Source: Verrucomicrobiales bacterium
GTDB taxonomy: Bacteria; Verrucomicrobiota; Verrucomicrobiia; Verrucomicrobiales; V1-33
DNA: 34,540 nt
Assembly (NCBI GenBank): GCA_028293125.1
Contig: JAQGPJ010000079.1
Span: 181,296 to 215,835 of the forward strand
Direction of reading: 5' to 3'
A program made the translations under genes and the position numbers. Positions 3,601-20,819 of the stretch are shown here, in pieces (position 1 is the stretch's first letter; every line of letters begins with the position of its first letter). The notes below the pieces were generated by a model. That model saw nothing but the letters and a program-made list of their open reading frames with translations, searched no databases and was not told where the DNA came from.

Positions 3601-6600
3601 TCAGGGGATTTCCTCGGCGAGCAGACGCAGGAAAAGGCGTTTGGTGTTCTGCGGTGTATAGGCGGTCGTGAGGATGTGAGCGGTGACACCGCCGGAGGGA
3701 ACGCTGAAGTCGGGATTCAGTCCCGTCCAGGCACCGCCGCCGGTGCGGCTGGCCAAGCTGGTCCAGTTGTTGAGTCCGGTGGCGGCCTGCACAGTCAGAC
3801 GCACATGGGAGTCGGCCATCGCCTCAATGGCAAGGGTCACGCGGCACTTCACCGGCGCCTGCGCATTTCCCAGCGGCAGCATGGCCAAGGCGTTGGCGGT
3901 GTTGAGGGCGGGCTCGTTTTTGGCGGGGTCCGTGCCCACGGCATATTCCAGAAGATTCGGCACACCGTCGCGGTCAAAGTCGGCTTCGTTGGCGCGGTCC
4001 TCCGTGCCTGCAGGGTTTCCAAAATGCGTCAGGCGCCACTGCTGCAGCGGGGTGTGGTCCGGCTTGACAGTGACCAGCGCGGTGAAGCCCGACCCCTCCA
4101 TCACGGGCACCGTCTCATCCGCGGCGGCACTGTCCAGCACCCGGCCTCTTGAGGAGATCATGGAGACGTAAAAGCGGTTGTTGGAGGCCTGCGCGGCGGT
4201 GGCGGTCAGGGTGAGGCGGATGCCCAGGTGCTGTGTGTCTCCCCCGGCGACTGGGATCAGATTGCCCAGCACCGCGTTGTAATTGATGGCCACCGTGCCG
4301 TCATCCTCCAGCGCCGCCGGCCCCGCCGCGCCAATCACCTTGCTGTCCACCGTCAGCCGGGCGCTGAGAAGCAACTGGCCCAACTCCGTTTTGCTGAGGG
4401 CCGGGCCCGGCTTCCACTGGCCGCTTCCGTTGGGGACCGCTCGGCTGAACCGCAGAGTGGCTCCGGTGAGAGCGGCCTCCTCATCCGCCAGCCATGTGGT
4501 GCCCGGCTCCCCGCTCCGGCCCTGATGAGTGGCTGACACTGTGAGCACCGATGCGCTTTGACCGGCGGCGATCACCGTCTCCGCGGCGCCGGACACTGTG
4601 GCGCGCAGCACGCGGGGGGCGTTTTTCAGGAAATGCACGTGCGTGCCGGTGGCGGCGGCCAGATCCGGAAATCCGTCGCGGTTGAGATCCATCACCTTGA
4701 TGGCCGTGAAGCCTCCGCTGACGCTGTGAAGGTCCTCGCGCTGCCAGCCGTTTTTCCAAGTGAAAAGGCTGATGCCGCCGGCGGTGGCGCAGAGGATATC
4801 ATCGCGCCCGTCGCGGTTCCAGTCCACGGTCTCCAAGGCGCGGATGGCGGAGGGGGCGGCACCGATGCCAAAGGCGCCGGCGGCGCCCGGCACCCAGTAA
4901 ACCAGTTGCCCGTTTCCGTGGACAAACACGAGTTTGTCCACGCCGTCGCCATGCAGTTTCCCCCAGGCCATCACCGGGGAATGAGGGCTGGCGGTGACGG
5001 GATGCTGCAGATCGCACATGCCGGTCCAAGGGCCTTTGAGTTGGAATCCGCGGACGCGCAGCGAACCGCCGGCGGTGCCGAGGCAGAACGGCTCATCGCC
5101 CGGACCGGCGGCCACATTGCGGGTGAGGATCGTCCGCGGCGCGGGCGAGGAGCTGTTCAGGACGTTCTGCCCCAGCCAGGTGTTTCCACTCTGATAGAGC
5201 CAGCGGAGCTGGCCCGTGGAGGCGGAGGAGGTGAGCAGGTCCATGCGGCCGTTGGCGGTGCCGAGCTGGCCGGTGGTGATGAGATTCACGCCCGTCAAAC
5301 CCGTGGCGATGGCTTCGTCCGCCCATGCGAAGGGAGCGGGGCCGTTGTTCATCGCCCGCCGCACCGCTCCGGAGGAGGGCAGAGTGTAGGCGATGTCCGG
5401 CCGCCCGTCGCGGTCCAGGTCCACCACCGTCGCGCCGCCCGGCGCCGCGCCCTGGGTGTTTTTGAAAACCGGCGCGGCCGGCACGCCGTCCTGTTCCCCA
5501 TAGCAGATCCACAGTTTGTTCTGGGAGGGGGTGACGGCCAGCAGATCGTCCAAGCCGTCCCGGTTGAAGTCCGCGCACTGAAGCTGCGTCACTCCCGCAA
5601 GCGGGTGGGTGCCGGAGGAGGCGGGCTGCGCGTCCGCCGCACGGTGATGGGAGCGGTTTTCGAAAAATACAAAACTCCCGTTGTCCATCAGCACCATGAA
5701 ATCCGTGTCGCCGTCCGAGTCGGAGTCCGCGGCCCCCACCTGCATCACCCATGAGGATAATTCCCCCAGGGTCACCGGTTGGCTCCAAGCCCCGTCGCCG
5801 TTGCCCGTGCGCATGACCAGGCTTTTGGCCGAGCCCAGGATGATGTCCATGAATCCGTCGCCGTTGGCGTCGGCGAACACCGATAGGCCGGCGATCACCC
5901 CGGCTCCACTCTCCGGCCAGGTGTGGGGGCCGTTGAAGCCGCCGGCCACGTTTCCGCTTTGGTTGTTCCACGACACGTATTTTGCATTGGCCAGTTCCGT
6001 CCAGCCGTCGCGGTTGAGGTCCACCGGGGTGGTGCCCCAGAACCAGTCGGCTGTGGAGGCGGTGAAGACACCGCTGCCGTTGTTGTCAAACAGGCGCGTG
6101 CTGGGGTGCCACAGCTCATCGTCCCCCCAATGCGCCTGGGCGCTGCACACCAGGTCCAGGTCCCCGTCATTGTCAAAATCACCCGCGCCCAGAGTGGCGT
6201 CGCTTCTGAAGCCGCTGCTTTGCAGCACACTGGCCGCGGCGAATTTTCCGGAGCCGTCATTCCAGCGGACAGCTAGGGAGCCTTTATTGACGGTGCCGGC
6301 CGCATATTCATACTGCAGCAGCGTGGCCATGTCCACATCCCCGTCCCGGTCAAAATCCCCGGCCACCAGCCGGTACTGGATATTGCCGGAGGCAAAGCCC
6401 GGATTGTGCTCGAAATCCAGACGCCAGCCCTGGGTGAAGGTTCCGCCGCCCTGGTTGAGCAGCACCGTCATGGTGAAATACCCGCTCATGCCGCCCCAGG
6501 CGTTGACCCGGAAGATATCCATATCCCCGTCGCCGTCGGCGTCCAGGGGAATGCCTGCGATGGGCTGGATCGTGGCCGGCGTCCACTGCGGCAGGGTATA

Positions 6601-6858
6601 GGATGGCAGGGTGATGGTGCCGCTTTCCGGAAACCGGGAAATCGTCGCGCCGCCGGCGTACCATTGCCGCCGGCCATTGCCCAGAAAGTCCGCCGCCACC
6701 GGCTCCTGGGTGCAGTAAAGGTAACCGCTCTCAGTGTGCAGCGCCGCGGCGGCCAGGCCCCCTGGCACAGGACGCGCCGTGAACGGGGCAGCGGACACGG
6801 ACAGAGGCAGGGACACGGCGCTCAGAGGAAGGCAAAGGAGACGAAGTGTGGTTTTCAT
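3601..6858 (-). CDS. Secreted FG-GAP/VCBS repeat protein
   Basis: A 1085-residue exported protein. Residues 1-24 form a signal peptide (MKTTLRLLCLPLSAV... ending near VSAAP). From about residue 100 to 790 there are around a dozen calcium-binding FG-GAP/VCBS blade motifs, for example DADGDGDMDIF, DFDRDGDVDMA, DFDNDGDLDLV, DANGDGFMDII, DFNRDGLDDLL, DWNRDGRDDIL and DLNRDGFPDLA, which would form one or two beta-propellers. The C-terminal ~125 residues start with DFDRDGVPNLLEYAVGTDP, a segment repeatedly seen at the end of large verrucomicrobial surface proteins. The ATG at 6858 is selected because of the signal peptide; no clear Shine-Dalgarno precedes it. Role: probably cell-surface adhesion or polymer binding; no enzymatic motif is visible. 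Confidence 0.9.
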   Translation of the reverse strand: MKTTLRLLCLPLSAVSLPLSVSAAPFTARPVPGGLAAAALHTESGYLYCTQEPVAADFLGNGRRQWYAGGATISRFPESGTITLPSYTLPQWTPATIQPIAGIPLDADGDGDMDIFRVNAWGGMSGYFTMTVLLNQGGGTFTQGWRLDFEHNPGFASGNIQYRLVAGDFDRDGDVDMATLLQYEYAAGTVNKGSLAVRWNDGSGKFAAASVLQSSGFRSDATLGAGDFDNDGDLDLVCSAQAHWGDDELWHPSTRLFDNNGSGVFTASTADWFWGTTPVDLNRDGWTELANAKYVSWNNQSGNVAGGFNGPHTWPESGAGVIAGLSVFADANGDGFMDIILGSAKSLVMRTGNGDGAWSQPVTLGELSSWVMQVGAADSDSDGDTDFMVLMDNGSFVFFENRSHHRAADAQPASSGTHPLAGVTQLQCADFNRDGLDDLLAVTPSQNKLWICYGEQDGVPAAPVFKNTQGAAPGGATVVDLDRDGRPDIAYTLPSSGAVRRAMNNGPAPFAWADEAIATGLTGVNLITTGQLGTANGRMDLLTSSASTGQLRWLYQSGNTWLGQNVLNSSSPAPRTILTRNVAAGPGDEPFCLGTAGGSLRVRGFQLKGPWTGMCDLQHPVTASPHSPVMAWGKLHGDGVDKLVFVHGNGQLVYWVPGAAGAFGIGAAPSAIRALETVDWNRDGRDDILCATAGGISLFTWKNGWQREDLHSVSGGFTAIKVMDLNRDGFPDLAAATGTHVHFLKNAPRVLRATVSGAAETVIAAGQSASVLTVSATHQGRSGEPGTTWLADEEAALTGATLRFSRAVPNGSGQWKPGPALSKTELGQLLLSARLTVDSKVIGAAGPAALEDDGTVAINYNAVLGNLIPVAGGDTQHLGIRLTLTATAAQASNNRFYVSMISSRGRVLDSAAADETVPVMEGSGFTALVTVKPDHTPLQQWRLTHFGNPAGTEDRANEADFDRDGVPNLLEYAVGTDPAKNEPALNTANALAMLPLGNAQAPVKCRVTLAIEAMADSHVRLTVQAATGLNNWTSLASRTGGGAWTGLNPDFSVPSGGVTAHILTTAYTPQNTKRLFLRLLAEEIP

Positions 6859-7091
6859 GGATGGCGTGTGGTTTGAAATGGAGGGCGGCGGGAGGCCGCG
6901 TCCGCCTCCGGCAGCCGTGCCGTCAGCGGTTCCCACTCATCCGTTCTTTATTGAAAACCGGGTATTGGACTTGCGGTGCAGGACCACCCTCCGGCGGGCG
7001 TTCCGGAACCAGGACTTTGGAAGGAGAGTCGGAGTGCCCTGCGGGTGCTTTCCACCCCCTGCGGCACCTGTTCCCGAACCGCCTCACCACC

Positions 7092-7492: not shown

Positions 7493-7960
7493 TCACCGGG
7501 GCCCCTGCTCCTTCTTTGAGTCCCGTGCGGAAGGGGGAGGCTGTTCCTGCTCATCCCTCTCACGGAAAGCCGAGACGAGGGTGTGCGTGTCCATGAATTC
7601 ATGGATGCGGCGCACATGGTTTTCAGGCGTGAACTCAAAAAGCTGGACCCACTGATATTGAAAGCCATTGCGTGTGGATTTCACGGTCCCCTCCGTCCTG
7701 CCGAGGACAATCACATGGTCCCGGTCGCTGAAAAACTGGCCAGGGGAAAAGGCGGTGTACACCAGCGCGGGCTCCCGGTCGGCGAGGAACTGGCGGAAGC
7801 CGTCTTTGCCTTCATAAGAGGTCTGCAGGGGCACCCCCGGCAGTTCAGGCAGAATGAAAACCACGTCCTCCGCCAGCAGGCCAAGCAGGGCCTCCATGTC
7901 ACCGCTTCCAAACGCGGAGTAAAGATCCTTCACAACGCTGATATGGGAGTCATTGTCCAT
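7493..7960 (-). CDS. SnoaL-like / NTF2-fold protein
   Basis: A 155-residue protein with the cone-shaped NTF2-like pattern of SnoaL/ketosteroid-isomerase-related proteins (COG3631 type): VKDLYSAFGSGDMEALLGLLAEDVVF near residue 10, GKDGFRQFLADREP in the middle, DHVIVLGRTEGTVKSTRNGF and FTPENHVRRIHEFMDTHTLVSAF at the end, followed by a polar tail. The ATG at 7960 fits the family start; the upstream frame is low-quality sequence. It lies 106 bases downstream of the PQQ-like propeller gene on the same strand. The substrate cannot be told; such proteins are small hydrolases, isomerases or ligand binders. Confidence 0.82.
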   Translation of the reverse strand: MDNDSHISVVKDLYSAFGSGDMEALLGLLAEDVVFILPELPGVPLQTSYEGKDGFRQFLADREPALVYTAFSPGQFFSDRDHVIVLGRTEGTVKSTRNGFQYQWVQLFEFTPENHVRRIHEFMDTHTLVSAFRERDEQEQPPPSARDSKKEQGPR

Positions 7961-8066
7961 GCAGTGTCTTATGCGGAGGCCAGGAGCGTGGTCAATTCTA
8001 TTCGTATGCGGGCAGCGCACAGGTCCACCGCTCCATCCAGTCCATCCAGTAGCGGGGCCGGCCTCA

Positions 8067-9407
8067 TCAGTCCCTGACGATTTTCCAGCACCGCAGCGAG
8101 CCATGATTCCGGGCCCACACATGGCCGCGGGCGTAGGCCGGGTGGGACCAGACGACGGGGCGCTCCTTCACGTCGGGGCAGTTGGGCTCGATGATTTGGC
8201 GGCGCTGTTTTTCCTGGTAAGCCTCGGGGGTCAGGGCGGCGCGGATGAGCTCGCCCTGCTCGTTGAAAAGAATGAACTCATTGCCGGAATGACCCAGCCG
8301 GGTCAGGAAGGCGGTGGCCCAGCGCTCCTCCTTTCCGCCGGTGCCAGCAAAGGTTTCCCATTTCCGGGCACCGGTTTTCCACTCCAGACAGCGCAGCTGG
8401 CCGTAGCTGCACACACCGTAGAAATAACCGTCCACCTCCAGGGGGGTGCACATCAGGGCATTCAGATGCTCGGTGCGGCGGTCGCTTTCGCGCTCCGTTT
8501 CCCAGAGGGTGTCCGGGGTGGAGAAGTCAGGCTTCAGCCGCAGCATTTTCGATCCCCACCAGAAGCAGGTGATCAGCAGGTCGTCCCCGCGCTGGATGGG
8601 CGAGGCCATGCTGACGCCAAACCGGGTTTCCTTCGGAATGCTCCACAGCACCTTGCCCGTCACCGGATCCAAGGCGTTCACCGCCTCGCCGTGCCAGAGA
8701 ATGAGCACCTCCCGGCCGTGGTGTCGGATGATTTTCGGTGGGGCATAGCCGGCCTGCCGGGAGGAAAGCGCCCGCCATTTCTCGGTCCCTGTCAGGCGGT
8801 CCAGCGCCAGGCACGTCGTGCCGTCCCCGCCCGCCAGACAGAACAGCGTGTCACCATGCACCAGCGGATGCCCGGCGAACCCCCAGGTGGCGGTGGGGCT
8901 TTTGAAATCCGCCTTCAGATCGCGCTTCCAGACGGTTTTTCCATCCACCGCCGAGGCGCAGAGCAGGGCTCCCTCGCCGCCCAAGGCGTAAACCAAGCCC
9001 TCGTGGACAGTGGGCGTGGCCCGCGGGCCTGACGAGTAGTCGAAGGTGTAGGCGGCGCGCCATTTTTGCTCCCAAACCGTTTTGCCAGTGGCGGCATCCG
9101 CGCACAGCAGCCGCTCCTCTCCGGCCACGCCCTTACTGGTGTCGGTGACGGAGTCATCGCGGTGGAAACTCAGTAGATACACCCGGTCCTCCGTGACCGC
9201 CGGACCGGTGTAACCGCCGCCCACCGGCGCCGCCCAGACCATGCGGGCGGAGTTCAGATCAATGCGCGAAGCAAGGTCCTTCTCCTCCCACACCCCATCG
9301 CGGTCCGGACCCATCCATTGCGGCCAGGCGGCCTTGGTGTCGGCGTTGGGGCTGGCGGAGGCGCTTCCGAGAGTGAGGGTCAGCAGCAGGGTAAGGAGGG
9401 ACTTCAT
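8067..9407 (-). CDS. Secreted PQQ-binding-like beta-propeller protein
   Basis: A 446-residue protein with a signal peptide (residues 1-19) followed by WPQWMGPDRDGVWEE, the usual opening of verrucomicrobial and planctomycetal PQQ-like propeller proteins. Blade motifs recur: DAATGKTVWEQKW, ASAVDGKTVWKRDL, LDRLTGTEKWRA, LDPVTGKVLWSIPK and LEWKTGARKWETF, with GGEGALLCA and GGDGTTCLA between them. These are tryptophan-docking blades as in BamB and quinoprotein dehydrogenases; I see no dehydrogenase catalytic set, so enzymatic activity is doubtful. It is probably periplasmic. The ATG at 9407 is fixed by the signal peptide. The SnoaL-like gene follows and may be co-transcribed. Confidence 0.87.
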   Translation of the reverse strand: MKSLLTLLLTLTLGSASASPNADTKAAWPQWMGPDRDGVWEEKDLASRIDLNSARMVWAAPVGGGYTGPAVTEDRVYLLSFHRDDSVTDTSKGVAGEERLLCADAATGKTVWEQKWRAAYTFDYSSGPRATPTVHEGLVYALGGEGALLCASAVDGKTVWKRDLKADFKSPTATWGFAGHPLVHGDTLFCLAGGDGTTCLALDRLTGTEKWRALSSRQAGYAPPKIIRHHGREVLILWHGEAVNALDPVTGKVLWSIPKETRFGVSMASPIQRGDDLLITCFWWGSKMLRLKPDFSTPDTLWETERESDRRTEHLNALMCTPLEVDGYFYGVCSYGQLRCLEWKTGARKWETFAGTGGKEERWATAFLTRLGHSGNEFILFNEQGELIRAALTPEAYQEKQRRQIIEPNCPDVKERPVVWSHPAYARGHVWARNHGSLRCWKIVRD

Positions 9408-9556
9408 GCTGCCGCCTGATACGTTCAGAGAGGGCGGAGTTTGCTCACGCGTTCAAGGAGAGGGAGACGGGCCATGGATGGCCATCCGGTGAGCCTCAAT
9501 CGCCGTTGTGTGTTTGGCTTCGGATCAGGTGACCTCATGACGCCCGCGGTCGCCTT

Positions 9557-9913
9557 TCACATCAGGGTGGCGGCGATGAACCCGTCCTCAAATGAGGATT
9601 CCCACACCGTGAGGCTTTTGACTCTGTCGAGGGTGGTGAACCGGGGGCGGGCCAAGCACAGGCTGAAACCATACCGGGGATCGGGTGAGCACCGGGCACC
9701 GGGCAGAAACGAGAGCCCGCCCCGGAGCTCCACGCCGCGTTTCGTGCATTCAATCTCCACCGGTTCAAAAAAATCGAGCACGTTCTCAGGCATCCAAGGC
9801 ACCTCGTCCCGCCAAAAAAGGGCTTGGATTTCAAGCCAGATGTCTCTGCTCAGTAAATTCGGAGAGTGTTTTTTCAATCGGGGGCGGGAGTGAGTGAAGG
9901 TCAGCGTATCCAT
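9557..9913 (-). CDS. Hypothetical protein, 118 aa
   Basis: Not recognised. From the ATG at 9913 the product starts MDTLTFTHSRPRLKKHS and has an aromatic-rich middle (DIWLEIQALFWRDEVPW, then ENVLDFFEPVEIE), a possible strand region RGVELRGGLSFLPG and ends FEDGFIAATLM. No signal peptide or membrane segment is seen. The upstream in-frame extension to 10012 is possible but less likely. No Shine-Dalgarno is obvious. It stands alone between the propeller gene and a gene-free stretch, and could be a recently acquired or orphan gene. Confidence 0.5.
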   Translation of the reverse strand: MDTLTFTHSRPRLKKHSPNLLSRDIWLEIQALFWRDEVPWMPENVLDFFEPVEIECTKRGVELRGGLSFLPGARCSPDPRYGFSLCLARPRFTTLDRVKSLTVWESSFEDGFIAATLM

Positions 9914-10279
9914 CCGGCGGACAGGGACAGGACGGCGGCCTGACGATTCAGAAGAATGCCATGGCGGTGCTTGAAAATCAATATGAATTGATGAAGGTTT
10001 CTCTTCCCTCATCCACGAATGCTAAACATGGAAAAGATTGTGATTTTGCTGAAATGAAGTTTATATGATTTCGTTATCAATCATATTGCCGCAGCTCTTT
10101 TAGAGCCCGGGCAACAACCTCGCCTGAGAGAAGACCGATAGGGTCCCTGCGTTGGCCGGCTCTTCACACGATTTCAAACCCGGCTTCATTGGCTCTCACC
10201 GTCCGGGGCGTGTGCTTTTCCTTCCAAGAAAAAGTGGATACGGAAACTTCGGCGGCCTGACTTGCGGCCTCTCTCCGTG
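9914..10279. other. Gene-poor AT-rich interval
   Basis: No convincing gene is seen. The part around 10020-10085 is markedly more AT-rich than its surroundings and holds ATGATT at 10065-10070 and AATCAT at 10079-10084, an inverted repeat that could be part of a promoter or operator of the 9557-9913 gene. The remainder shows nothing recognisable. Confidence 0.4.
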
Positions 10280-11835: not shown

Positions 11836-13455
11836 TCAAGCGGCGATGGAGGACGCACGCTCAGCCGGGGGCAGCATGACCAGGCTGCTGCGGGCCAGAC
11901 GCAGGGTCGCCGTCCGCGTGGCGGGATCCGCGCCGGGGGACAGACGGTCCAGCCACCACTGTGGCCGGTCGGTGATGGATTTCTCCACCGCCTTGCCGAC
12001 CAGCGCGGTCTGGCTTTCCAGCCGGCGCTCCATCTCGGCCACCGCACCCCGCTCATCACGGGCCAGCCAGTCGGCCAGCAGCGTTTCCCCTACCCCCCGC
12101 GCCGGATCAAACGGTGTCCTGCCGCTGTCGATCAGGCCGTTGGCCCAGCGGAAGGCGGCTTCGGGATTCTCCCGTCCCCAGGATTCGGCCACCGCGCGGA
12201 CCGCCTGGCCGGAAAGTTTGCCGTCCGGGCGCAGGGCGTCCGGCTTCATGAGGCGCTCCCTCGCGGCCCGCCAGTCCTCATCCGCCATGGCGCTGAAGAT
12301 CAGGCCCGACACGGATTCGAATTTGTCCGGGTTTCCCCGGAATTCCCCCAGCAGGGTGATGGCGCTCTCCGTATCGCCGGAGCTGTAGTGTGCGAGCGTG
12401 GGATACATATCCTCCGAATACATGGACCAACCGCCGTTCAGGTCCATCTGGATGGTGGAGGCGGCCTGGAGAATATCCAGCAGCGGAGGCCGGCCGCACG
12501 CCGCGCCTCCCGGAGGCGGCGGTCCCGTCCGCGAGGTGCTTGCAGAAGCGCGCGCGCTTCCCGGCTTTATCAAAGCCGCGGCAGCATTCCGGCCGGATGC
12601 CGTGCTGGCCAGCTGCCGTGCCGCCTCCGCCGCGGCCCCGGTGTGGAATTCGCTCCCTGCACTCAGGGCCAGGAGGAGCAGCGCGGCGGCAGCCGCCGCC
12701 CAGGTGATGGATTTTCCGTAGAGCATAAATTGCAGGGAGTGCCAGGACTTCGCGGCCAGTCCCAAGTGCGACGCACCGGTGACCGCGGAGCCCGCGAATT
12801 GGGAGGCTGCCGCCGCGGAGACACCGGGAGACAGCGCCTCCGCATTCAGCATCATGCCGAGGGCGGCGGCGGGAACCGCGACACCGCGCCGGCGCAGCAG
12901 GCGGGAAAGTTTTTCCAAGGCGCGGGAGGCCTGCTTCTGCACGGTGTCGTCCGCCTTGCACAGCCGTGTCCCGATATCCCGAAAACTGTGCCCCTCGTAA
13001 TACCGCAGAATCAGCAGATGGCGGTCGGACTCCGGAAGGTGCTCCAGCGCCTCATCCAGTTCCGTGAGAATGCGGTGCCGCAAGTGGGAGGGGGAGAGCG
13101 GTGGCGGCGGATTCATAACGTCGGATTCGGCGGCCAGGGAGACCATCAGGCGGTGACGGCGGGCCTCGCGCCGGCGGAGCGCGCAGGCCTCCAGCAGGGC
13201 GGCGCGGTGCAGCCAGAGATTCAGGGCTGGATGGCTCCGCAGGGAGGCCGCCTTGGCCGCCATGACCGTGAAAACCGCCTGCGCCGCCTCTTCCGCCAGG
13301 CACTGGCTGCCGCTGAGGGCCCGCTTGGCGGTGCCCAGCACCAGCCCCGCATATCGGCGCGTCAGCACATGGACGGCATCCCCGTCCCCCTGCTCCGCCC
13401 AGCGGCGGAGCAGGGTGCTGTCGCCCGCGGTTTCCAGTGAGTTCAAATCCGGCAT
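11836..13455 (-). CDS. ECF-type sigma factor fused to a transmembrane segment and repeat tail
   Basis: A 539-residue protein. Residues 12-85 match sigma region 2 (STLLRRWAEQGDGDAVHVL, YAGLVLGTAKRAL, AEEAAQAVFTVMAAKA) and 128-190 match region 4 (ALEHLPESDRHLLILRYY, then HSFRDIGTRLCKADDTVQKQ). A C-terminal extension begins with GVAVPAAALGMMLNAEAL, seen in some planctomycete/verrucomicrobial ECF factors, then a transmembrane helix at about 249-268, a low-complexity linker and helical repeats (ESWGRENPEAAFRWANGL). This places the DNA-binding part in the cytoplasm and the repeats outside. The ATG at 13455 is preferred over a GTG two codons earlier. No Shine-Dalgarno is visible. Its promoter targets are unknown. 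Confidence 0.85.
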   Translation of the reverse strand: MPDLNSLETAGDSTLLRRWAEQGDGDAVHVLTRRYAGLVLGTAKRALSGSQCLAEEAAQAVFTVMAAKAASLRSHPALNLWLHRAALLEACALRRREARRHRLMVSLAAESDVMNPPPPLSPSHLRHRILTELDEALEHLPESDRHLLILRYYEGHSFRDIGTRLCKADDTVQKQASRALEKLSRLLRRRGVAVPAAALGMMLNAEALSPGVSAAAASQFAGSAVTGASHLGLAAKSWHSLQFMLYGKSITWAAAAAALLLLALSAGSEFHTGAAAEAARQLASTASGRNAAAALIKPGSARASASTSRTGPPPPGGAACGRPPLLDILQAASTIQMDLNGGWSMYSEDMYPTLAHYSSGDTESAITLLGEFRGNPDKFESVSGLIFSAMADEDWRAARERLMKPDALRPDGKLSGQAVRAVAESWGRENPEAAFRWANGLIDSGRTPFDPARGVGETLLADWLARDERGAVAEMERRLESQTALVGKAVEKSITDRPQWWLDRLSPGADPATRTATLRLARSSLVMLPPAERASSIAA

Positions 13456-13745
13456 ACACACGGCTACTGCCGCGCCCGTGGATTTTCCGACATGAAATTT
13501 CAGGGATGCGATCTTTGATCCTGCTTCCGGCTTGCGGAGAGGTCTCTGTTTTGATCACTGGCGGTAAGGCCCGCCGCGGTGACCGCATAGCCTGGTCAGG
13601 CCCGCGCTCCAAGCATTGGAAGAATCCCAGTTTGTCTCCGTTCCGGATATAACAGGCGCGCTCCTGTAAGGATTCATGAAACTCACGGTTCCCCGGAGTG
13701 CGCCGCCGGACAGTCCCCGTTTCCACTTTTTGAGCCCAGCCAAGC

Positions 13746-15188
13746 ATGAACAGCCGACCTTTGCCCGTAAACCGCCGCCAAGTCCTGAAAACCGGTCTGC
13801 TGGCCGCCTGTGCGGCCTCCGATGCCGGAGCCCAGGAAGCACCGCCGCTTTTTGTGGAGGGCTACACCGGGCAGGTCAGTTATGCGCCGGGGGAGGAGGT
13901 GACGCTGTGCGTCTCGTGCGGCGGCCCCGTGTTCTCCGTGGAGGTCACGCGGCTGGGCGCGAAGCCCCAACAGGTCTGGAGCGCGGCGGATGTCGCCGGC
14001 AAAGCGTATCCGGTTCCGGAGAATGCCTCGTCCCATGGCTGCCAGTGGCCGGTGGCGGTCACCTTCAGGATTCCGCCGGAGTGGCGCAGCGGTTATTATC
14101 AGGTGGTGCTGCGCACGCGGGATCAGGGCGGGGGATTTACCCACCGCAACGCCCGCACGGCGGAGGCCGGGTGCTTTTTCATCCTGCGCGGGGGCGGTGC
14201 CGCGCCCCGGGCGAAGATCCTGCTGCAGCTGTCCTCGAACACTTACAATGCTTATAACAACTGGGGAGGCTTCAGCCTGTATGCCTACAACGGGCGCAAT
14301 GGAAACCAAGGCCACCGGGTGTCCTTCGAGCGCCCGCCGGCGTCGCAGTTCGGCAACTGGGAGCTGCCTTTTGTCGAATGGGCGGAGCGCCAGGGATTCG
14401 AGATGGACTACATCGCCAACAACGATCTGGAGTTCCATCCGGAGGAGTTGCAGGGCCGCTCCCTGGTCCTGAGCGTGGGGCATGATGAGTATTGGTCCGC
14501 GCCGATGCGTGACACCCTCGAGAAATTCATCGAGGCCGGAGGGAACGCCGCATTTTTCAGCGGCAACGTGTGCTGCTGGCAGGTCCGCAGTGAGGACAAG
14601 GGACGCGCGCTCACCTCGTGGAAGCAGAATTACCACTCGGATCCTGTTTATGCCGCCCGCCAGGGCTATGACCTGCTGGCCTCCCTCTGGAGCCATCATC
14701 TGATCAAACGCCCGGAAAACCAGCTGACCGGCGTGGGTTTCCTCTGGGGGGGCTATCACCGCAGCCACGGCCAGCTGATGGAGGCCAGCGGGGCGTTCAA
14801 TGTGCACCGGCCTGACCATTGGCTGCTGACCGGCACCGGCCTGAAGGCCGGCGACGCCTTTGGAGGCAAGGACACCATCGTGGGCTACGAATGCGACGGC
14901 TGTGAGTTGGAGTTCCGTGACGGCCTGCCTTTCCCCACCCACCGCGACGGCACGCCGGAGAGCTTTGAAATTGTCTGCACTGCCCCTGCGCAGTGGCATC
15001 CCGATGACTGCCAGTGGTATGACCAATGGGAAAATGGCCGCAAAGGCCATGCGGTGCTGGGAGTTCACCAGCGTGGCAAGGGCACGGTTTTCACCTGCGG
15101 CAGCACGGACTGGTCGCACGGCCTGCGGGGCGGCGATCCCGCCGTGGACCGCATCACCCGCAACCTTCTGGAAAAGCTGGCTGTATAG
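13746..15188 (+). CDS. Tat-exported N,N-dimethylformamidase beta-subunit-like protein
   Basis: A 480-residue protein. The N-terminus has a twin-arginine signal (NRRQVLKTG at 9-17, then a hydrophobic run ending near AGAQEAP). The mature part begins with a beta-sandwich-like domain (FVEGYTGQVSYAPGEEVTL) followed by the region typical of the DMFase large-subunit family: ILLQLSSNTYNAYNNWGG, SFERP, GFEMDYIANNDLE, LVLSVGHDEYWS and FFSGNVCCWQVR. The family includes DMFase itself, but most members are uncharacterised, and the glutamine-amidotransferase-like fold does not fix the substrate. The next gene starts 2 bases after the stop, so they form an operon with the heme protein; both are exported, suggesting a shared extracytoplasmic task. 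Confidence 0.83.
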   Translation: MNSRPLPVNRRQVLKTGLLAACAASDAGAQEAPPLFVEGYTGQVSYAPGEEVTLCVSCGGPVFSVEVTRLGAKPQQVWSAADVAGKAYPVPENASSHGCQWPVAVTFRIPPEWRSGYYQVVLRTRDQGGGFTHRNARTAEAGCFFILRGGGAAPRAKILLQLSSNTYNAYNNWGGFSLYAYNGRNGNQGHRVSFERPPASQFGNWELPFVEWAERQGFEMDYIANNDLEFHPEELQGRSLVLSVGHDEYWSAPMRDTLEKFIEAGGNAAFFSGNVCCWQVRSEDKGRALTSWKQNYHSDPVYAARQGYDLLASLWSHHLIKRPENQLTGVGFLWGGYHRSHGQLMEASGAFNVHRPDHWLLTGTGLKAGDAFGGKDTIVGYECDGCELEFRDGLPFPTHRDGTPESFEIVCTAPAQWHPDDCQWYDQWENGRKGHAVLGVHQRGKGTVFTCGSTDWSHGLRGGDPAVDRITRNLLEKLAV

Positions 15189-15190
15189 GA

Positions 15191-18016
15191 ATGAAAAAAA
15201 AAGGACTGATCAAAAACAAGAGTGTCAGCGATGGAATCATGGCCGGACGCCGGATCCGGGTGCGGGTCCGCCGGGCCGCGCTCCTCGGTGCCGGGGTTGT
15301 TCCCCTGCTGGCCGGAGCCGGAGCCGGGGCCGGGGCCGCGGAGTTGCTGCATGACTTCGACCGCGACGGCGTGCCGGAGAAGTTGGTCAGTGGACCGGGG
15401 ATCAATGAGATTCGCCAGCGCGATGAGGCGGGCGCGTGGAAGGCGGCGGACTATGCTCTGCCCGGAGACGGGAGCGTGGCTTTGGTGGATGCGGAGGGGA
15501 ACGATGCCGGGCTGCGGTTCGTGGATTTGAACGGCGATGGATTCGACGACATCCTGTTCTCCAATGACTCGCGCTTCGCGATTTACCTGTGGGCCAAAAA
15601 CGTGCGCCCGGAACTCGGCTGGACGCGGGGCTGGTCGCATCCTGTCAGGGAGGGGCCGCGCACCGGGGCGGCAGTGGAGCCGCCGTCCGTGGCGGGCGCG
15701 GAGGTGACGCTGGACGGAGGCGTGCTCACCATCACCCGCCCGGCCAGGGACGGGCAGCCGGCGACGGTGGAGAAAGTGCCGGCAAAAAAACTGATCGCTT
15801 TTGACATTCCCCCGCCGAAATCCCCCGCGGAGGCCTTGGAGAGTTTCCGGGTGCGGCCCGGCTTCCGGGTCGAACTCGTGGCCGCCGAGCCGCAGGTGAT
15901 CGATCCCGTGGCCTTCGACTGGGACGCCCAGGGCCGGCTGTGGGTGGTTGAAATGCGGGACTATCCCATGGGGATGGATGGTAAGGGCAAAGCCGGCGGC
16001 GTGGTGAAGCTGCTGGAGGACACCGATGGCGACGGACGTTACGAGCGCGCCACTCCCTTTCTGGAGGACATCCCCTATCCGACGGGTGTAATGCCGTGGG
16101 GGAAAGGGGTGCTGCTCACGGCAGCTCCCGATCTCTTTTACGCCGAGGACACCGATGGCGATGGCCGGGCGGACGTGCGGAAGGTGCTTTTCACCGGCTT
16201 TCATCCCGGAAACCAGCAGCACCGCTTCAATGGCTTTGACCGGGGGCTGGACGGATGGGTTTACTTGGCCAACGGGGACAGTGGCGGGGTGGTGAAGTCC
16301 ATGGCGACAGGACAGGAAATCTCCATCAGCGGGCGCGATGTGAGGCTCCGGCCGGACACCGGGGAAATCGAAACCGTCTCGTCCCAGTCCCAGTACGGGC
16401 TGCGCCGTGATGACTGGGGAAACTGGTTCGGCAACAACAACTCCACCTGGCTGTGGCACGTCACCCTGCCGGAGCATTATCTCCGCCGGAACCCGCGGCT
16501 TCCGGTGAAAAGCGTCCACCATGTGCTGGCGAACTATGAGGCGCCGACGCGGGTGTTCCCCGCCAGCGCGGCCATGGTACGGCCCAACCAGCCATGGTCC
16601 CTGAACCACGTCACCAGCGCGTGCAGCCCGGTCCCTTACCGGGATGAGCTTTTCGGCCCCGCCTTCAGCACCAGTGTCTTCATCGGCGAGCCGGTGCACA
16701 ACGCCGTGCATCGGGAGGTGCTGGAGCGGGAGGGAACCGGATTCACCAGCAGCCGCGCCGAGGGCGAGGAGAACAGTGAATTCCTTGCCAGCGCCGACAA
16801 TTGGTTCCGGCCCGTCTTCCTCAAAACCGGTCCCGACGGCGCGCTGTATGTGGCGGACATGTACCGCTTTGTGCTGGAGCATCCGGAGTGGATCGCTCCG
16901 GAAATGCAGCAGCGGCTGGATGTGCGGGCCGGGGAGGACAAAGGGCGTCTCTACCGCATCGTGCCCGAGGGGTGGAGCCGCAGGCCGGTGCCCACACTCG
17001 CGGGCCGGACCGTGGCCGAACTGGCGGCGGCGCTGGACAGTCCCAATGGATGGCAGCGGGACACCGCGATGGCGCTGCTGACGGAGCGCCGGGACCTTGC
17101 GGCGGCGGCGGTGGTACCCCTGCGGGCCCTGCTGGATCTCGCCCACGCTCCCAAAGTCCGCCTTCAGGCGCTGGCCACCTTGGGACAGCTGAAGCGGCTG
17201 GACCGGGAAATCCTGACCGCCGCCCTGACGGATCCCCATCCCGAGGTCCGGTGTGAAGCCCTGCGGCAGAGCGAGGCGTCCGCGGGGACGGAGCCCGCCC
17301 TTTTCACCGCCGTGGCGGCCTTGGCGGACGACAGTCAGGCTGAAGTGCGCCTGCAGGCCGCCTTTTCGCTCGGTGCCTGGCCACCCGCCCTGAATGAGCC
17401 GGTGCTGCACCGGCTGGCGCTGCGGGAGGACGCCGATGAATCCTTGCGGGCGGCTCTTCAGTCCTCGCTCCGGCCGGAGAGTGAATTGTTCGCTCAGTTG
17501 CAGGCGGAATCCTCCCTGCCACGGCCCGCCGCGGCGGCGGCGGTGGCCCTGACCGCCTCCTCGCCGGACCGTGAGGCGGTGATCGCCGGCTATGCCGGAG
17601 TGGGGAAAATGACGGGGGATCCGGCGCGCGGACAAGCTCATTTCCAGCAACTGTGCGCCACCTGCCACCGGCTGAGGGGCGAGGGGCAAAGCGTGGGACC
17701 GGATCTCGGGATGACCAGCTCAAAACCGGTGGACTGGCTGCTGACGGCCATCCTGGATCCCAACCAGAACGTGGAGGCCCGCTACCGCCCGTGGCTGCTG
17801 ACCCTCAAATCCGGTGATTCCCTGTCCGGGCTGGTTTCCGCCGAGACGGCGAACAACCTGGTGCTGCGCCTTCCTGGCGGTGCCGAGCACGCAGTGCTGC
17901 GCGCCGATATTCAAAAACAGGAGCCGCTGTCCATCTCCCTGATGCCGCCGGGATTTGAATCCGCCCTCAAACCCCAGGACATGGCGGACCTTCTGCTCTG
18001 GCTGCGCGGGCCATAG
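15191..18016 (+). CDS. PVC-type heme-binding CxxCH protein (propeller, HEAT-like, cytochrome c)
   Basis: A 941-residue exported protein. A basic region and hydrophobic stretch (about 20-50) act as signal. Two FG-GAP-like motifs follow (DFDRDGVPEK, DLNGDGFDDILF). The Piru/Ver N-terminal domain (TIGR02604 type), a beta-propeller related to membrane-bound dehydrogenases, runs from about 212 (SPAEALESFRVRPGFRVELV, WVVEMRDYP) to 640. A HEAT-like helical part covers about 655-790. A C-terminal cytochrome c module (TIGR02603 type) has CATCH at 822-826 for covalent heme and a probable axial Met at 918 in LMPPG. Such proteins are frequent in Planctomycetes and Verrucomicrobia, with putative electron-transfer or sugar-oxidation roles. 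The start at 15191 is 2 bases after the upstream stop; a Met at codon 17 is an alternative. Confidence 0.92.
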   Translation: MKKKGLIKNKSVSDGIMAGRRIRVRVRRAALLGAGVVPLLAGAGAGAGAAELLHDFDRDGVPEKLVSGPGINEIRQRDEAGAWKAADYALPGDGSVALVDAEGNDAGLRFVDLNGDGFDDILFSNDSRFAIYLWAKNVRPELGWTRGWSHPVREGPRTGAAVEPPSVAGAEVTLDGGVLTITRPARDGQPATVEKVPAKKLIAFDIPPPKSPAEALESFRVRPGFRVELVAAEPQVIDPVAFDWDAQGRLWVVEMRDYPMGMDGKGKAGGVVKLLEDTDGDGRYERATPFLEDIPYPTGVMPWGKGVLLTAAPDLFYAEDTDGDGRADVRKVLFTGFHPGNQQHRFNGFDRGLDGWVYLANGDSGGVVKSMATGQEISISGRDVRLRPDTGEIETVSSQSQYGLRRDDWGNWFGNNNSTWLWHVTLPEHYLRRNPRLPVKSVHHVLANYEAPTRVFPASAAMVRPNQPWSLNHVTSACSPVPYRDELFGPAFSTSVFIGEPVHNAVHREVLEREGTGFTSSRAEGEENSEFLASADNWFRPVFLKTGPDGALYVADMYRFVLEHPEWIAPEMQQRLDVRAGEDKGRLYRIVPEGWSRRPVPTLAGRTVAELAAALDSPNGWQRDTAMALLTERRDLAAAAVVPLRALLDLAHAPKVRLQALATLGQLKRLDREILTAALTDPHPEVRCEALRQSEASAGTEPALFTAVAALADDSQAEVRLQAAFSLGAWPPALNEPVLHRLALREDADESLRAALQSSLRPESELFAQLQAESSLPRPAAAAAVALTASSPDREAVIAGYAGVGKMTGDPARGQAHFQQLCATCHRLRGEGQSVGPDLGMTSSKPVDWLLTAILDPNQNVEARYRPWLLTLKSGDSLSGLVSAETANNLVLRLPGGAEHAVLRADIQKQEPLSISLMPPGFESALKPQDMADLLLWLRGP

Positions 18017-18088
18017 GCCCAGACTGGACTGGACTGAACGGACCGGAATGCCGGACGGTTGCAATCATTCCTGGGCAGAAATTTTTTC

Positions 18089-18114
18089 AGGAAAGGGAAG
18101 GGAAGGGGAAAGGA
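18089..18114 (+). repeat. Purine-only G-rich tract
   Basis: A 26-base run of only A and G with five G-runs of two to four G (AGGAAAGGGAAGGGAAGGGG and onward). It could form a two-layer G-quadruplex in DNA or in the leader RNA of the SGNH esterase gene, whose ATG is 72 bases further on. A short irregular GACTG tandem lies just before it at 18022-18036. Confidence 0.45.
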
Positions 18115-18185
18115 CCGGTCTCTGGCTGGGGCAATATCAAAGCTTACCTGAATTTTCCTTCCGTCGGAGCGTATCACGCACACTC

Positions 18186-19346
18186 ATGAACATCCCGCCG
18201 ACTTTGCTGAATCATTCCCGACCGGTCAGCCGCCGACTGAACGCCGTTTCAGGCCGATTCGGGCTGCTTCCGCTCTTCGCCATGGCTTTCTGCCTGCTCC
18301 CAATCCAAGCCTTGGCGCTGGATGTGCAGTGGCATGATGCCGGGTCGTTTGAGGTGGAGGGACGCGGCTGGGAGAAGACGGCGACTCTTTATGGCCGGCT
18401 CCCGGATTCCGCCGAGGGCAGGGTGCCGAAGACGGCGTGGGATTTAAGCAGGGACAACCCCGGCATCTGCATCCGGTTCGTCACCGATGCCCGGAACATC
18501 GCGGTCCGCTGGTCGCTTCTCCGCAGTGCCCTGGCCATGCCCCACATGGCCGCGACCGGTGTCAGCGGGGTGGACCTCTACACCCGATCCGGCAATGTCT
18601 CGTGGATCTTTGTTGGGAATGGCCGTCCCGGGCGGCAGGATAACAATATCGGCGAATTCCGTTTCCGCGGAGAGGAAAAGGCGGAGCATGAGTGCCTGCT
18701 TTACCTGCCCGCCTACAACGGAGTGAAATCGCTGGAGATCGGGGTGCCGCCGGGAGCCCGCCTGGAGAAGCCGGCCCCCCGGCCGGAGTCCCGGCGGAAA
18801 CCGGTGGTGGTCTATGGCACATCGATTGCCCAGGGGGCCTGCGCCTCACGCCCGGGGATGGTCTGCTCGGCCATCCTGGGCCGGATGCTCGACCGGCCGG
18901 TGATCAACCTGGGGTTCTCAGCCTCCGGGAACATGGAGCATCCCGTCGGAGAGGTGCTGGCGGAGATCGATGCCGCGGCCTTTGTGATCGACTGCACCTG
19001 GAACATGAGTGATGATCCCGCGCTCTACCGTGACTGTGTGCCGAAGCTGGTCCACGCCATCCGCAAACAGCGCCCCGCGGCCCCCATCATTTTTGTGGGC
19101 CAGTCGGAGATCAGGCCGGAATCGCACCCCACCAAATTCACCTTGGGGCAGGAGGCGGCGGTGCAGGCCCTTCAGTCGGAGGGGGGGCGGGGACTCATCA
19201 CCGTTCCGGGGACGGATCTGATTGGTGATGACGGCGAGGGCACTGTGGACGGCGTCCATCTTTCGGATCTCGGCATGATGCGGCAGGCACAGGTCTTGTT
19301 TCCCATCGTGAAAAAGGCTGTGGAGGGCAGTCCGTCCAAACCTTAG
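18186..19346 (+). CDS. Secreted SGNH/GDSL esterase with N-terminal GxDLY domain
   Basis: A 386-residue protein. A signal sequence spans about residues 16-45 (FGLLPLFAMAFCLLPIQALAL). The N-terminal domain carries GVDLY at 128-132, the signature of the GxDLY domain (Pfam pairing with Lipase_GDSL_3), and the C-terminal SGNH domain has nucleophile S213 in VVVYGTSIAQG, the block with G243 and N249 in GFSASGN, and the catalytic D355/H358 in DGVHLSDLG. Members of this arrangement are extracellular carbohydrate or acyl esterases. The ATG at 18186 fits the signal peptide; the nearest GGAG is about 20 bases away. It lies 169 bases after the heme-protein gene and could still belong to its transcription unit. 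Confidence 0.9.
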   Translation: MNIPPTLLNHSRPVSRRLNAVSGRFGLLPLFAMAFCLLPIQALALDVQWHDAGSFEVEGRGWEKTATLYGRLPDSAEGRVPKTAWDLSRDNPGICIRFVTDARNIAVRWSLLRSALAMPHMAATGVSGVDLYTRSGNVSWIFVGNGRPGRQDNNIGEFRFRGEEKAEHECLLYLPAYNGVKSLEIGVPPGARLEKPAPRPESRRKPVVVYGTSIAQGACASRPGMVCSAILGRMLDRPVINLGFSASGNMEHPVGEVLAEIDAAAFVIDCTWNMSDDPALYRDCVPKLVHAIRKQRPAAPIIFVGQSEIRPESHPTKFTLGQEAAVQALQSEGGRGLITVPGTDLIGDDGEGTVDGVHLSDLGMMRQAQVLFPIVKKAVEGSPSKP

Positions 19347-19465: not shown

Positions 19466-19592
19466 CTTGCAATTCCCTTGTCCATCAGCGGCTCCCCGGC
19501 CTATACAGCACCGGTCCTGGCCAGCCCATGCGCTTTATCCGCAGATGGCAGGCCTCTTGCAGCCTTTCTCGGAAACTCCCGCTCCTTTCCTT

Positions 19593-20819
19593 ATGCATCA
19601 GATCGATCCCGCCCGCCTCCGGCAATTGATTCAGGAAGAGCTTCCCGAACTCATTGAGATCCGCCGGGATCTGCATCAAAACCCCGGACTGTCCTATCAG
19701 GAGACCTATGCCAGCGCCCGGGTGCGGGAGGAGCTGGCCAAGGCCTCGGTTCCGTTCCTTGGGGGACTCGCCAAAGGCCCCAAATCGGATGTCGGCACCG
19801 GGGTGGTGGCGTGGCTGCCCGGAGCGGCGGCGGCGGCGGTCGGCCTGCGCGCGGATATGGACGCGCTGCCGATCAGGGAGGAGACAGGATGCGCGCATGC
19901 CTCCGTGGTTCCCGGGGTGATGCACGCCTGCGGGCATGATGGTCACACGGCCATTCTGATCGGCGCGGCCAAAGTTCTGGCCCGGATGGCGCAGGGGAGC
20001 ACGCTGCCCCAGCCGGTCAGGTTTATTTTCCAGCCGGCGGAGGAGGGAGGTGCGGGTGCCGCCCGGATGATCGCGGACGGCTGCCTCGACGTTATGCCCT
20101 CCTCGCCGCGGGTGGGGCACATGTTCGGACTGCATGGCTGGCCAAGCGCGCCGTTGGGGGAAATTCTGACATGCGTGGGGCCTATCACGGCGGCGACCGC
20201 CTGTTTTGAGGTCACGGTGACCGGACGCGGAGGCCATGCGGCGTTTCCCCATTTCAACCAAGACCCGATTGTGGCCGCCTCCGCCATCGTGGGCGCCGTG
20301 CAGAGCATCGTGGCGCGCAATGTGGATCCCATCGCCTCCGGAGTGATTTCCGTCACACAGTTCCTGGCGGGCGACGGCGCGCACAATGTGATCCCCTCCA
20401 CGGCCACGCTGCGGGGGACGATCCGGGCGTTGGACACCGGTGTGATGGAAGTGCTGAAGCGGCGGTTCACGGAGGTCGTCTCCCTGAGCGCCGGGGCTTA
20501 TGGATGCACGACGGAAGCCACCTATGAGATCGAGGGACTGGCGGAATATCCGGTGACCATCAACAGTCCCGAGGCGGTGGGCGCGCTGAAGGCCGTCCTG
20601 CCAAAGCTGCACACCAGCCTGCAGCCCGTGATGGGCGGCGAGGATTTCGCCTTTTACAGCGCCAGGGTGCCCTCCGCGTTCTTTGTGATCGGCCTGCGGC
20701 CTCCGGGCAGGGACAGCATGCCCGGCCTGCATCATCCGCAGTTCGATTTCAATGACGACGCGCTCGGCATCGGCGTGGAGGCGTTCTGCCGGGTGGCGCT
20801 GGGCATGGCGGGGGACTGA
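19593..20819 (+). CDS. M20D amidohydrolase (N-acyl amino acid / hippurate hydrolase type)
   Basis: A 408-residue cytoplasmic metal-dependent amidohydrolase. Motifs: IEIRRDLHQNPGLSYQE near 21-37, GLRADMDALPIREETG at 84-99, HACGHDGHT at 111-119 with metal ligands C113 and H115, FQPAEEGG at 147-153 with E150/E151 (catalytic base and ligand), FGLHGWP with H181, and GLHHPQFDF near 378-386 with H381. These are the ligands of the two-metal M20D site. Enzymes in this family deacylate N-acyl amino acids such as hippurate or IAA-amino acids; the exact substrate is not determinable. The frame is open upstream; I used the ATG at 19593 because the family starts there. No Shine-Dalgarno is seen. It ends 29 bases from the convergent toxin gene. 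Confidence 0.92.
   Translation: MHQIDPARLRQLIQEELPELIEIRRDLHQNPGLSYQETYASARVREELAKASVPFLGGLAKGPKSDVGTGVVAWLPGAAAAAVGLRADMDALPIREETGCAHASVVPGVMHACGHDGHTAILIGAAKVLARMAQGSTLPQPVRFIFQPAEEGGAGAARMIADGCLDVMPSSPRVGHMFGLHGWPSAPLGEILTCVGPITAATACFEVTVTGRGGHAAFPHFNQDPIVAASAIVGAVQSIVARNVDPIASGVISVTQFLAGDGAHNVIPSTATLRGTIRALDTGVMEVLKRRFTEVVSLSAGAYGCTTEATYEIEGLAEYPVTINSPEAVGALKAVLPKLHTSLQPVMGGEDFAFYSARVPSAFFVIGLRPPGRDSMPGLHHPQFDFNDDALGIGVEAFCRVALGMAGD

Follow-up and report, generated by a model that had tools for sequence, protein, structure and literature searches.

A compact dimethylformamidase-like protein and a PVC-type cytochrome are encoded by a conserved gene pair in Verrucomicrobiales and relatives

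In a 34,540-nucleotide stretch of a Verrucomicrobiales genome (contig JAQGPJ010000079.1; hereafter the window), a gene for a compact relative of the N,N-dimethylformamidase (DMFase) large subunit stands directly ahead of a gene for a PVC-type cytochrome protein. We find the coupling of these two genes to be well supported, and comparison of genomes makes it very likely that their products act together outside the cytoplasm. Joint action of this kind was the core of the original prediction, and it is strengthened by natural fusions of the two proteins, a conserved 4-base overlap of their genes, a conserved gene order, and pairing with several branches of cytochromes. Whether the two genes encode one extracytoplasmic unit, in which a hydrolase is wired to a quinoprotein-type dehydrogenase/cytochrome, we regard as evenly balanced.

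The gene pair and its surroundings

The features of the pair are as follows, with positions counted from the first base of the window.

13746..15188, + strand: compact DMFase large-subunit-like protein, 480 aa, with an ATG start (PF20254, 278.9 bits against a curated cut-off of 27)
13938..15128, + strand: DMFA2_C catalytic domain, residues 65-461 (PF20254 match), with putative ligands as in Paracoccus DMFase (parDMFase; PMC7686228)
15186..15193, + strand: tight junction, read from the sequence as the stop TAG (15186-15188), two bases, and the start ATG (15191)
15191..18016, + strand: PVC-type cytochrome protein, 941 aa, predicted to be exported (DUF7133, TIGR02604, TIGR02603)
15353..15556, + strand: FG-GAP_3 repeat segment, residues 55-122 (Pfam match)
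15821..16972, + strand: predicted propeller with a PQQ sugar-dehydrogenase fold, residues 211-594 (DUF7133/TIGR02604 and model)
17129..17371, + strand: HEAT repeats, residues 647-727 (Pfam match)
17615..18007, + strand: c-type haem domain with a CATCH motif, residues 809-939 (TIGR02603 and motif reading)

The spacing of two bases between the genes is as originally predicted; a second ATG, at 15239, could also serve as the start, and the size of the gap depends on which of the two is chosen. Next downstream is an SGNH esterase with a GxDLY domain (17955-19346), the true start of which probably lies inside the ORF, followed by an M20-family amidohydrolase (19467-20819). Divergent from the pair is a gene for an ECF-type sigma factor, the long C-terminal region of which has no Pfam match (11836-13461, - strand), and the same strand carries a PQQ_2/BamB-like propeller (8067-9407), a SnoaL-like protein (7493-8122) and an FG-GAP protein with five matched stretches (3601-6936). 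In one related locus, L031, a large alpha/beta hydrolase with DLH and glucuronyl-esterase-like matches is found directly upstream of the pair (7708-9951), and the cluster to which it belongs is also present in L037, L038, L042, L043, L045, L046, L047 and L060.

The DMFase-like protein retains a putative iron site

The DMFase-like gene is the single PF20254 gene of its genome, as determined by a profile search of the contigs (6.48 Mb, 120 contigs). Its product begins with a Tat-like signal peptide (...NRRQVLKTGLLAAC..., with NRRQVLK), which makes the predicted Tat export plausible for the window protein. The prediction did not carry over to the family. Of 146 readable N-termini of DMFase-like proteins, 28 contain the strict motif RRx[FLVIM][LMIVF], a count that does not support Tat export as a trait of the whole family. 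A hydrophobic N-terminal segment was present in 138 of the 146, suggesting that export is a family trait and the Tat motif is not.

With the solved Paracoccus DMFase large subunit (6lvb; PMC7686228) the window protein shares PF20254 and the Ig-like and GATase/ThuA-like catalytic domains. At 480 residues versus 762 in the solved chain, it is without the pentraxin domain and, unlike the Paracoccus enzyme, appears to be exported, is paired with a cytochrome, and has no small subunit seen beside it. The profile match to 6lvb covers 2-41 and 339-554 and leaves out the region between them. A structural model of the protein (pLDDT 79.8, with low confidence at residues 167-175) matched DMFase 6lve in fold with a Z of 30.6, aligning over 401 of 751 residues, and reached a Z of 30.5 against N-acetyl-(R)-beta-phenylalanine acylase 8huy. 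The acylase (8huy, 8i5a) is of the same family (phmmer E 1.3e-9) and is longer, with 772-776 residues. The DMFase-like protein of L133 (2228-4789) carries about 430 extra N-terminal residues that have no Pfam match.

In Paracoccus DMFase, Fe(III) is bound by Tyr399, Tyr440 and Glu521, and His519 is essential; the 2-Tyr-1-Glu iron site is called unique in that account (PMC7686228). The candidate counterparts in the window protein are Tyr167, Tyr179, His246, Glu248 and Asn274, which would match the Tyr/Tyr/Glu/His/Asn set of the Paracoccus enzyme. In the profile alignment, SHPEY of 6lvb aligns with GHDEY, which contains His246 and Glu248, and a later Asn aligns with Asn274, while Tyr167 and Tyr179 were assigned by reading the motifs STLSY / S-x-NTY and GLSTY / GFSLY. 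HMMER placed Tyr440 of DMFase onto Tyr181 rather than Tyr179, and Tyr399 was not aligned at Tyr167. Among the 151 rows of the family alignment, Tyr179, His246, Glu248 and Asn274 are present in all 151 and Tyr167 in 150, whereas position 181 varies (Y in 120, F in 30, H in 1). The other PF20254 subfamily has a T after SLY in most of its loci, and this favours Tyr179 over Tyr181 as the ligand. Taken together, the conserved residues suggest that the DMFase-like protein probably holds iron. The same site residues were also found in 78 of 78 DMFase-like proteins that have no propeller neighbour. These account for 78 of 143 usable loci, and we conclude that the enzyme can exist without such a partner, which counts against reading the pair as one unit.

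The second gene encodes a cytochrome with a predicted sugar-dehydrogenase-like propeller

The ORF at 15191-18016 matches DUF7133 (512.8 bits), TIGR02604 (271.9 bits, cut-off 122.2) and TIGR02603 (127.8 bits, cut-off 68.15), with further matches to FG-GAP_3, HEAT_2 and Cytochrom_C. Both TIGR models over cut-off together with its one CxxCH motif, CATCH, identify it as a PVC-type haem-binding CxxCH protein, and a SLMPPGF segment within the c-type haem domain carries a candidate Met ligand. With PF20254, TIGR02604 and TIGR02603 all over cut-off, the two proteins belong to the families to which they had first been assigned. The genome has 48 TIGR02604 matches in 36 frames (counted by hand), 26 over cut-off. 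A described protein of this type, the verrucomicrobial Lac161_ORF7, has the same domains in a TIGR02604-HEAT-cytochrome architecture and is reported to release glucose from lactose, and the available part of its account makes no mention of an oxidation test (PMC5342196). Activity on lactose in a protein like the window cytochrome hints at sugars as the substrates. Unlike proteins of the Lac161_ORF7 type, the window cytochrome has an FG-GAP-containing N-terminal part and a DMFase-like gene ahead of it.

We compared a model of the cytochrome (pLDDT 77.3) with known structures and found PQQ sugar dehydrogenases to be its best VIA-align matches. Residues 222-595 matched 3a9g with a Z of 24.4 (rmsd 3.4 over 285 residues), and residues 211-593 matched AA12 6i1t with a Z of 24.3. 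Across 3a9g, 6i1t and sGDH 1qbi, the model points to a common propeller fold, with Z values of 22.5-24.4, 285-299 residues compared and 14-15% identity, and the window protein differs from these enzymes in having its own c haem and a HEAT domain. Foldseek ranked other proteins first, many of them propellers, and placed sGDH 31st. The C-terminus of the cytochrome resembles the di-haem cytochrome Kustd1711. PF07995 (the GSDH family) gave no match in the window cytochrome at E 0.001, and a few TIGR02604 frames of the same genome do match it. When the cytochrome profile was searched against the PDB, HEAT and cytochrome chains and no propeller were among the best 60 matches, and a GSDH protein of the genome matched no PDB chain. 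An hhalign comparison of the PQQ site was weak, with a match of only 29 columns at a probability of 1.6. His344 and Arg540 are invariant in 28 of 28 cytochromes, and by eye we liken them to residues of sGDH, as candidates for PQQ binding.

The pairing is conserved across families

Searches of genome contigs gave 426 relatives of the DMFase-like protein, of which we retained the best 80; 76 of these have room for a gene downstream. Titles among the best 80 of 426 include Verrucomicrobiaceae, Pedosphaera, Chthoniobacteraceae, Akkermansiaceae and Opitutae, and extend to a few records of Planctomycetota and Poribacteria and a single one of Omnitrophota. A same-strand PVC-type propeller lies downstream in 44 of the 76 loci, the cytochrome being close (at least 50% identity) in 34, remote (27-35%) in 10 and absent in 32. 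The Omnitrophota locus (L054) is a remote pair, and the Planctomycetota and Poribacteria records fall in the class without a cytochrome. Gene order is thus conserved in several families, and the neighbourhood reaches beyond this genome and its close relatives; we rejected a restriction of the pair to close relatives because of this spread.

To compare the DMFase-like genes with other genes of the same loci, we counted which gene came next in the same direction. It belonged to the cytochrome cluster for 37 of 75 DMFase-like genes versus 20 of 652 other genes. Two of the 37 (L035 and L039), at a distance of 1.3 kb, belong only weakly to the cluster and lie outside the 44 of 76 above. Relatedness of the loci inflates this and all other counts, which are not independent. 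The junction itself is also distinctive. A 4-base start/stop overlap with the DMFase-like stop, counted as a possible and hence putative start of the next frame, was found for 38 of 45 called neighbours (including L035, L039 and L049) versus 54 of 373 other co-directional neighbours, the control being limited to gaps of less than 420 bases and the observed set having no such limit. The overlap reads ATGA in 31 cases and GTGA in 7, and the junction in the window, with its 2-base gap and TAG stop, is among the looser cases. Chance neighbourhood was rejected by the next-gene counts, the 4-base overlap, the wider locus set and the cytochrome tree (see below).

In 7 of the 44 pairs (L006, L009, L018, L026, L034, L044 and L058) a gene of a MauG/CcpA-type cluster, cluster 8, with one or two CxxCH motifs intervenes. 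The L018 gene (11413-12531) has a CCP_MauG match of 146 bits, and the other members were assigned by clustering only. An eighth neighbour of this cluster, in L049, has no CxxCH in its called frame, and the L044 gene, read by eye, appears to share its frame with an esterase-like segment.

Co-occurrence in wider samples and unpaired members

We searched 386 genomes of the order and found the DMFase-like protein in 90 of them. A similar cytochrome, taken as a match with E 1e-190 or better (44-100% identity), is present in 25, and 21 genomes have both. The DMFase-like gene is therefore present in 21 of 25 genomes with a similar cytochrome versus 69 of 361 without one (one-sided Fisher p 4e-11 by genome and 0.007 by genus, from 2x2 tables read off by hand, with scoring confined to the best cytochrome candidates of each genome). 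Nine of the 94 DMFase-like matches in this sample, which lie at or near a contig end, were left out. Where both genes are present they are adjacent in 10 genomes and on different contigs in 11, and 69 of the 90 carriers of the DMFase-like gene have no similar cytochrome at the threshold used; these counts speak against a single unit. In a sample drawn evenly from the phylum, PF20254 was found in 8 of 288 genomes, four of them with the subfamily of the window; besides the window, the cytochrome is the next gene in L104 and L105 and is not in L113. The other PF20254 subfamily (24-30% identity) showed no such cytochrome neighbour in its ten loci.

We then considered a wider set, for which 150 of 164 loci by our own count were kept along with the window, identical matches and matches of fewer than 330 residues having been dropped. 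By identity classes that we set ourselves (close, at least 50%; mid, 38.5-50%; and remote), the 150 distinct loci comprise 36 close, 10 mid, 13 remote, 6 fused, 78 with none and 7 with no room, the remote class including L181 and L184, in which the match is 27% and 1.2 kb away. A propeller is therefore adjacent or fused in 65 of 143 usable loci, and none is found within 2.6 kb downstream in 78 of 143. We also looked for the cytochrome in the whole genomes of 50 of the 80 loci (all 32 with none, all 10 remote and 8 close). Only two genomes of the 32 unpaired loci have a near full-length cytochrome elsewhere, at 57% (G319) and 70% (G290).

Fusions and the cytochrome tree

In four genomes of the order, the DMFase-like protein and the cytochrome are joined in one polypeptide. 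These fusions occupy six loci, three of them complete:

L127, 4164-9110: complete fusion, 1648 aa
L129: complete fusion, 1628 aa
L130: complete fusion, 1642 aa
L128: fusion running off its contig, 1686 aa

Each of the four matches DMFA2_C (280-297 bits), DUF7133 (301-318 bits), HEAT_2 and cytochrome c, with TIGR02604 over cut-off. L131 and L132 are like fusion frames that fill short contigs, detected by tblastn only. The propeller parts of L127 and L128 are 98% alike, and the two come from genomes of different families, suggesting transfer or a binning error.

A FastTree phylogeny of propellers (99 rows, mostly sampled via DMFase-like loci) distributes the paired cytochromes over three branches or more. 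The first of these, with 16 propellers in the sample, consists entirely of paired (10) or fused (6) members, and unpaired members of this branch may be unsampled. A second branch holds nine paired propellers and one unpaired, and a third, to which the window cytochrome belongs, has 36 paired propellers and, after two mislabelled rows were corrected, two that are truly unpaired. The label "fused" for L015, an overlapping-frame artefact, and the label "unpaired" for L001, the window's own copy, were discounted. L022 and L181/L184 pair with still other cytochrome branches. Because unpaired paralogues separate the paired branches, the tree suggests that pairing probably arose, or partners were swapped, more than once. 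The second and third branches may share one origin, and the number of origins is unsure because of long branches and sampling that followed DMFase-like loci. A mirror-tree correlation (r 0.90 for 36 close pairs, a value attained by 0 of 2000 permutations) was set aside, because shared ancestry explains it.

A proposed reaction and its alternatives

No described pathway that joins these families was found in the open-access literature, in agreement with the original prediction, nor was a paper there with both dimethylformamidase and Verrucomicrobia. Our literature searches also found no paper on ThuA with PVC heme proteins and no use of the name "PVC-type heme-binding", and a single paper that mentions TIGR02604. 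For the pair we infer iron, amide hydrolysis, dehydrogenase activity, a quinone cofactor, the substrate class and the path of electrons. The simplest chain would be hydrolysis, then oxidation, then transfer of electrons to periplasmic cytochromes. In the working that we consider most likely, the iron site would cleave a bond of acyl type, probably an amide, by hydrolysis in the periplasm, in a substrate that is small, polar and possibly glycosidic, and the propeller would oxidise the product freed there, or the two steps would run in reverse order. Electrons would exit the propeller via the C-terminal c haem of the cytochrome and, in some lineages, may also pass via the MauG/CcpA-type di-haem protein encoded between the pair. 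In its most specific form, an amide hydrolase with iron(III) would join a quinoprotein-type dehydrogenase/cytochrome in one periplasmic machine that deacylates its substrate and then oxidises the exposed sugar or amine. We put this forward tentatively, as possible rather than probable.

Alternatively, the propeller-cytochrome could act first, by oxidising a sugar ring in a glycoside. The DMFase-like domain, with its ThuA-like core, could then cleave or eliminate the resulting keto compound, a reaction also proposed for proteins of ThuA type. The DMFase-like model does match ThuA-like structures, with Z 12.2-13.2. In the window's own genome, ThuA shares frames with TIGR02604 matches (C31, 1796 aa, over cut-off; C70, 1363 aa, 52.1 bits and under cut-off), so that a GATase-like domain of ThuA instead of DMFase type accompanies a propeller of the same family. 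Domain III of DMFase has been likened to ThuA-like proteins (PMC7686228), and the activity of Lac161_ORF7 on lactose (PMC5342196) would also suit a glycoside. The ThuA likeness is not specific, however, because glycosidases with a similar domain match no worse (up to Z 15.3, for GH42 5xb7), and amide hydrolases are by far the closest structures (Z about 30). The residues of the amide-hydrolase site are retained, and a literature search linking ThuA with 3-keto-glycosides gave nothing relevant. We therefore consider oxidation before cleavage unlikely, if deserving of attention.

We also asked whether the neighbours could be co-expressed periplasmic proteins of one catabolic regulon, with no contact and no shared substrate. 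In favour of this, the majority of usable loci are without such a neighbour, and the other exported hydrolases around the pair vary; the fusions, the conserved 4-base overlap and the pairing with several cytochrome branches argue against it and make it improbable. That the first protein is a true dimethylformamidase for solvent amides is hardly credible even with family and site residues common to both, since the pentraxin domain is absent, no small subunit was recognised among the 20 window ORFs scanned with Pfam, and the parDMFase large subunit alone is inactive (PMC7686228).

A Ceramidase_alk domain is found in two PVC-type cytochromes that are paralogues within the same genome; it is N-terminal in one (C113; L117 466-6117) and has its best stretch C-terminal in the other (C118; L118 649-7155). 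With both Ceramidase_alk and ThuA sharing frames with relatives of the cytochrome, a propeller-cytochrome coupled to some hydrolase-like domain may represent a general theme. A single periplasmic machine that joins hydrolysis and oxidation, in some species as one polypeptide, would be a route that we found described for no bacterium. If the putative site does bind iron, the 2-Tyr-1-Glu iron site would be a widespread extracytoplasmic catalyst and not a feature of DMFase only. The recurrent partner with a recognisable active site, together with natural fusions that fix the stoichiometry, offers a direct biochemical entry to this family.
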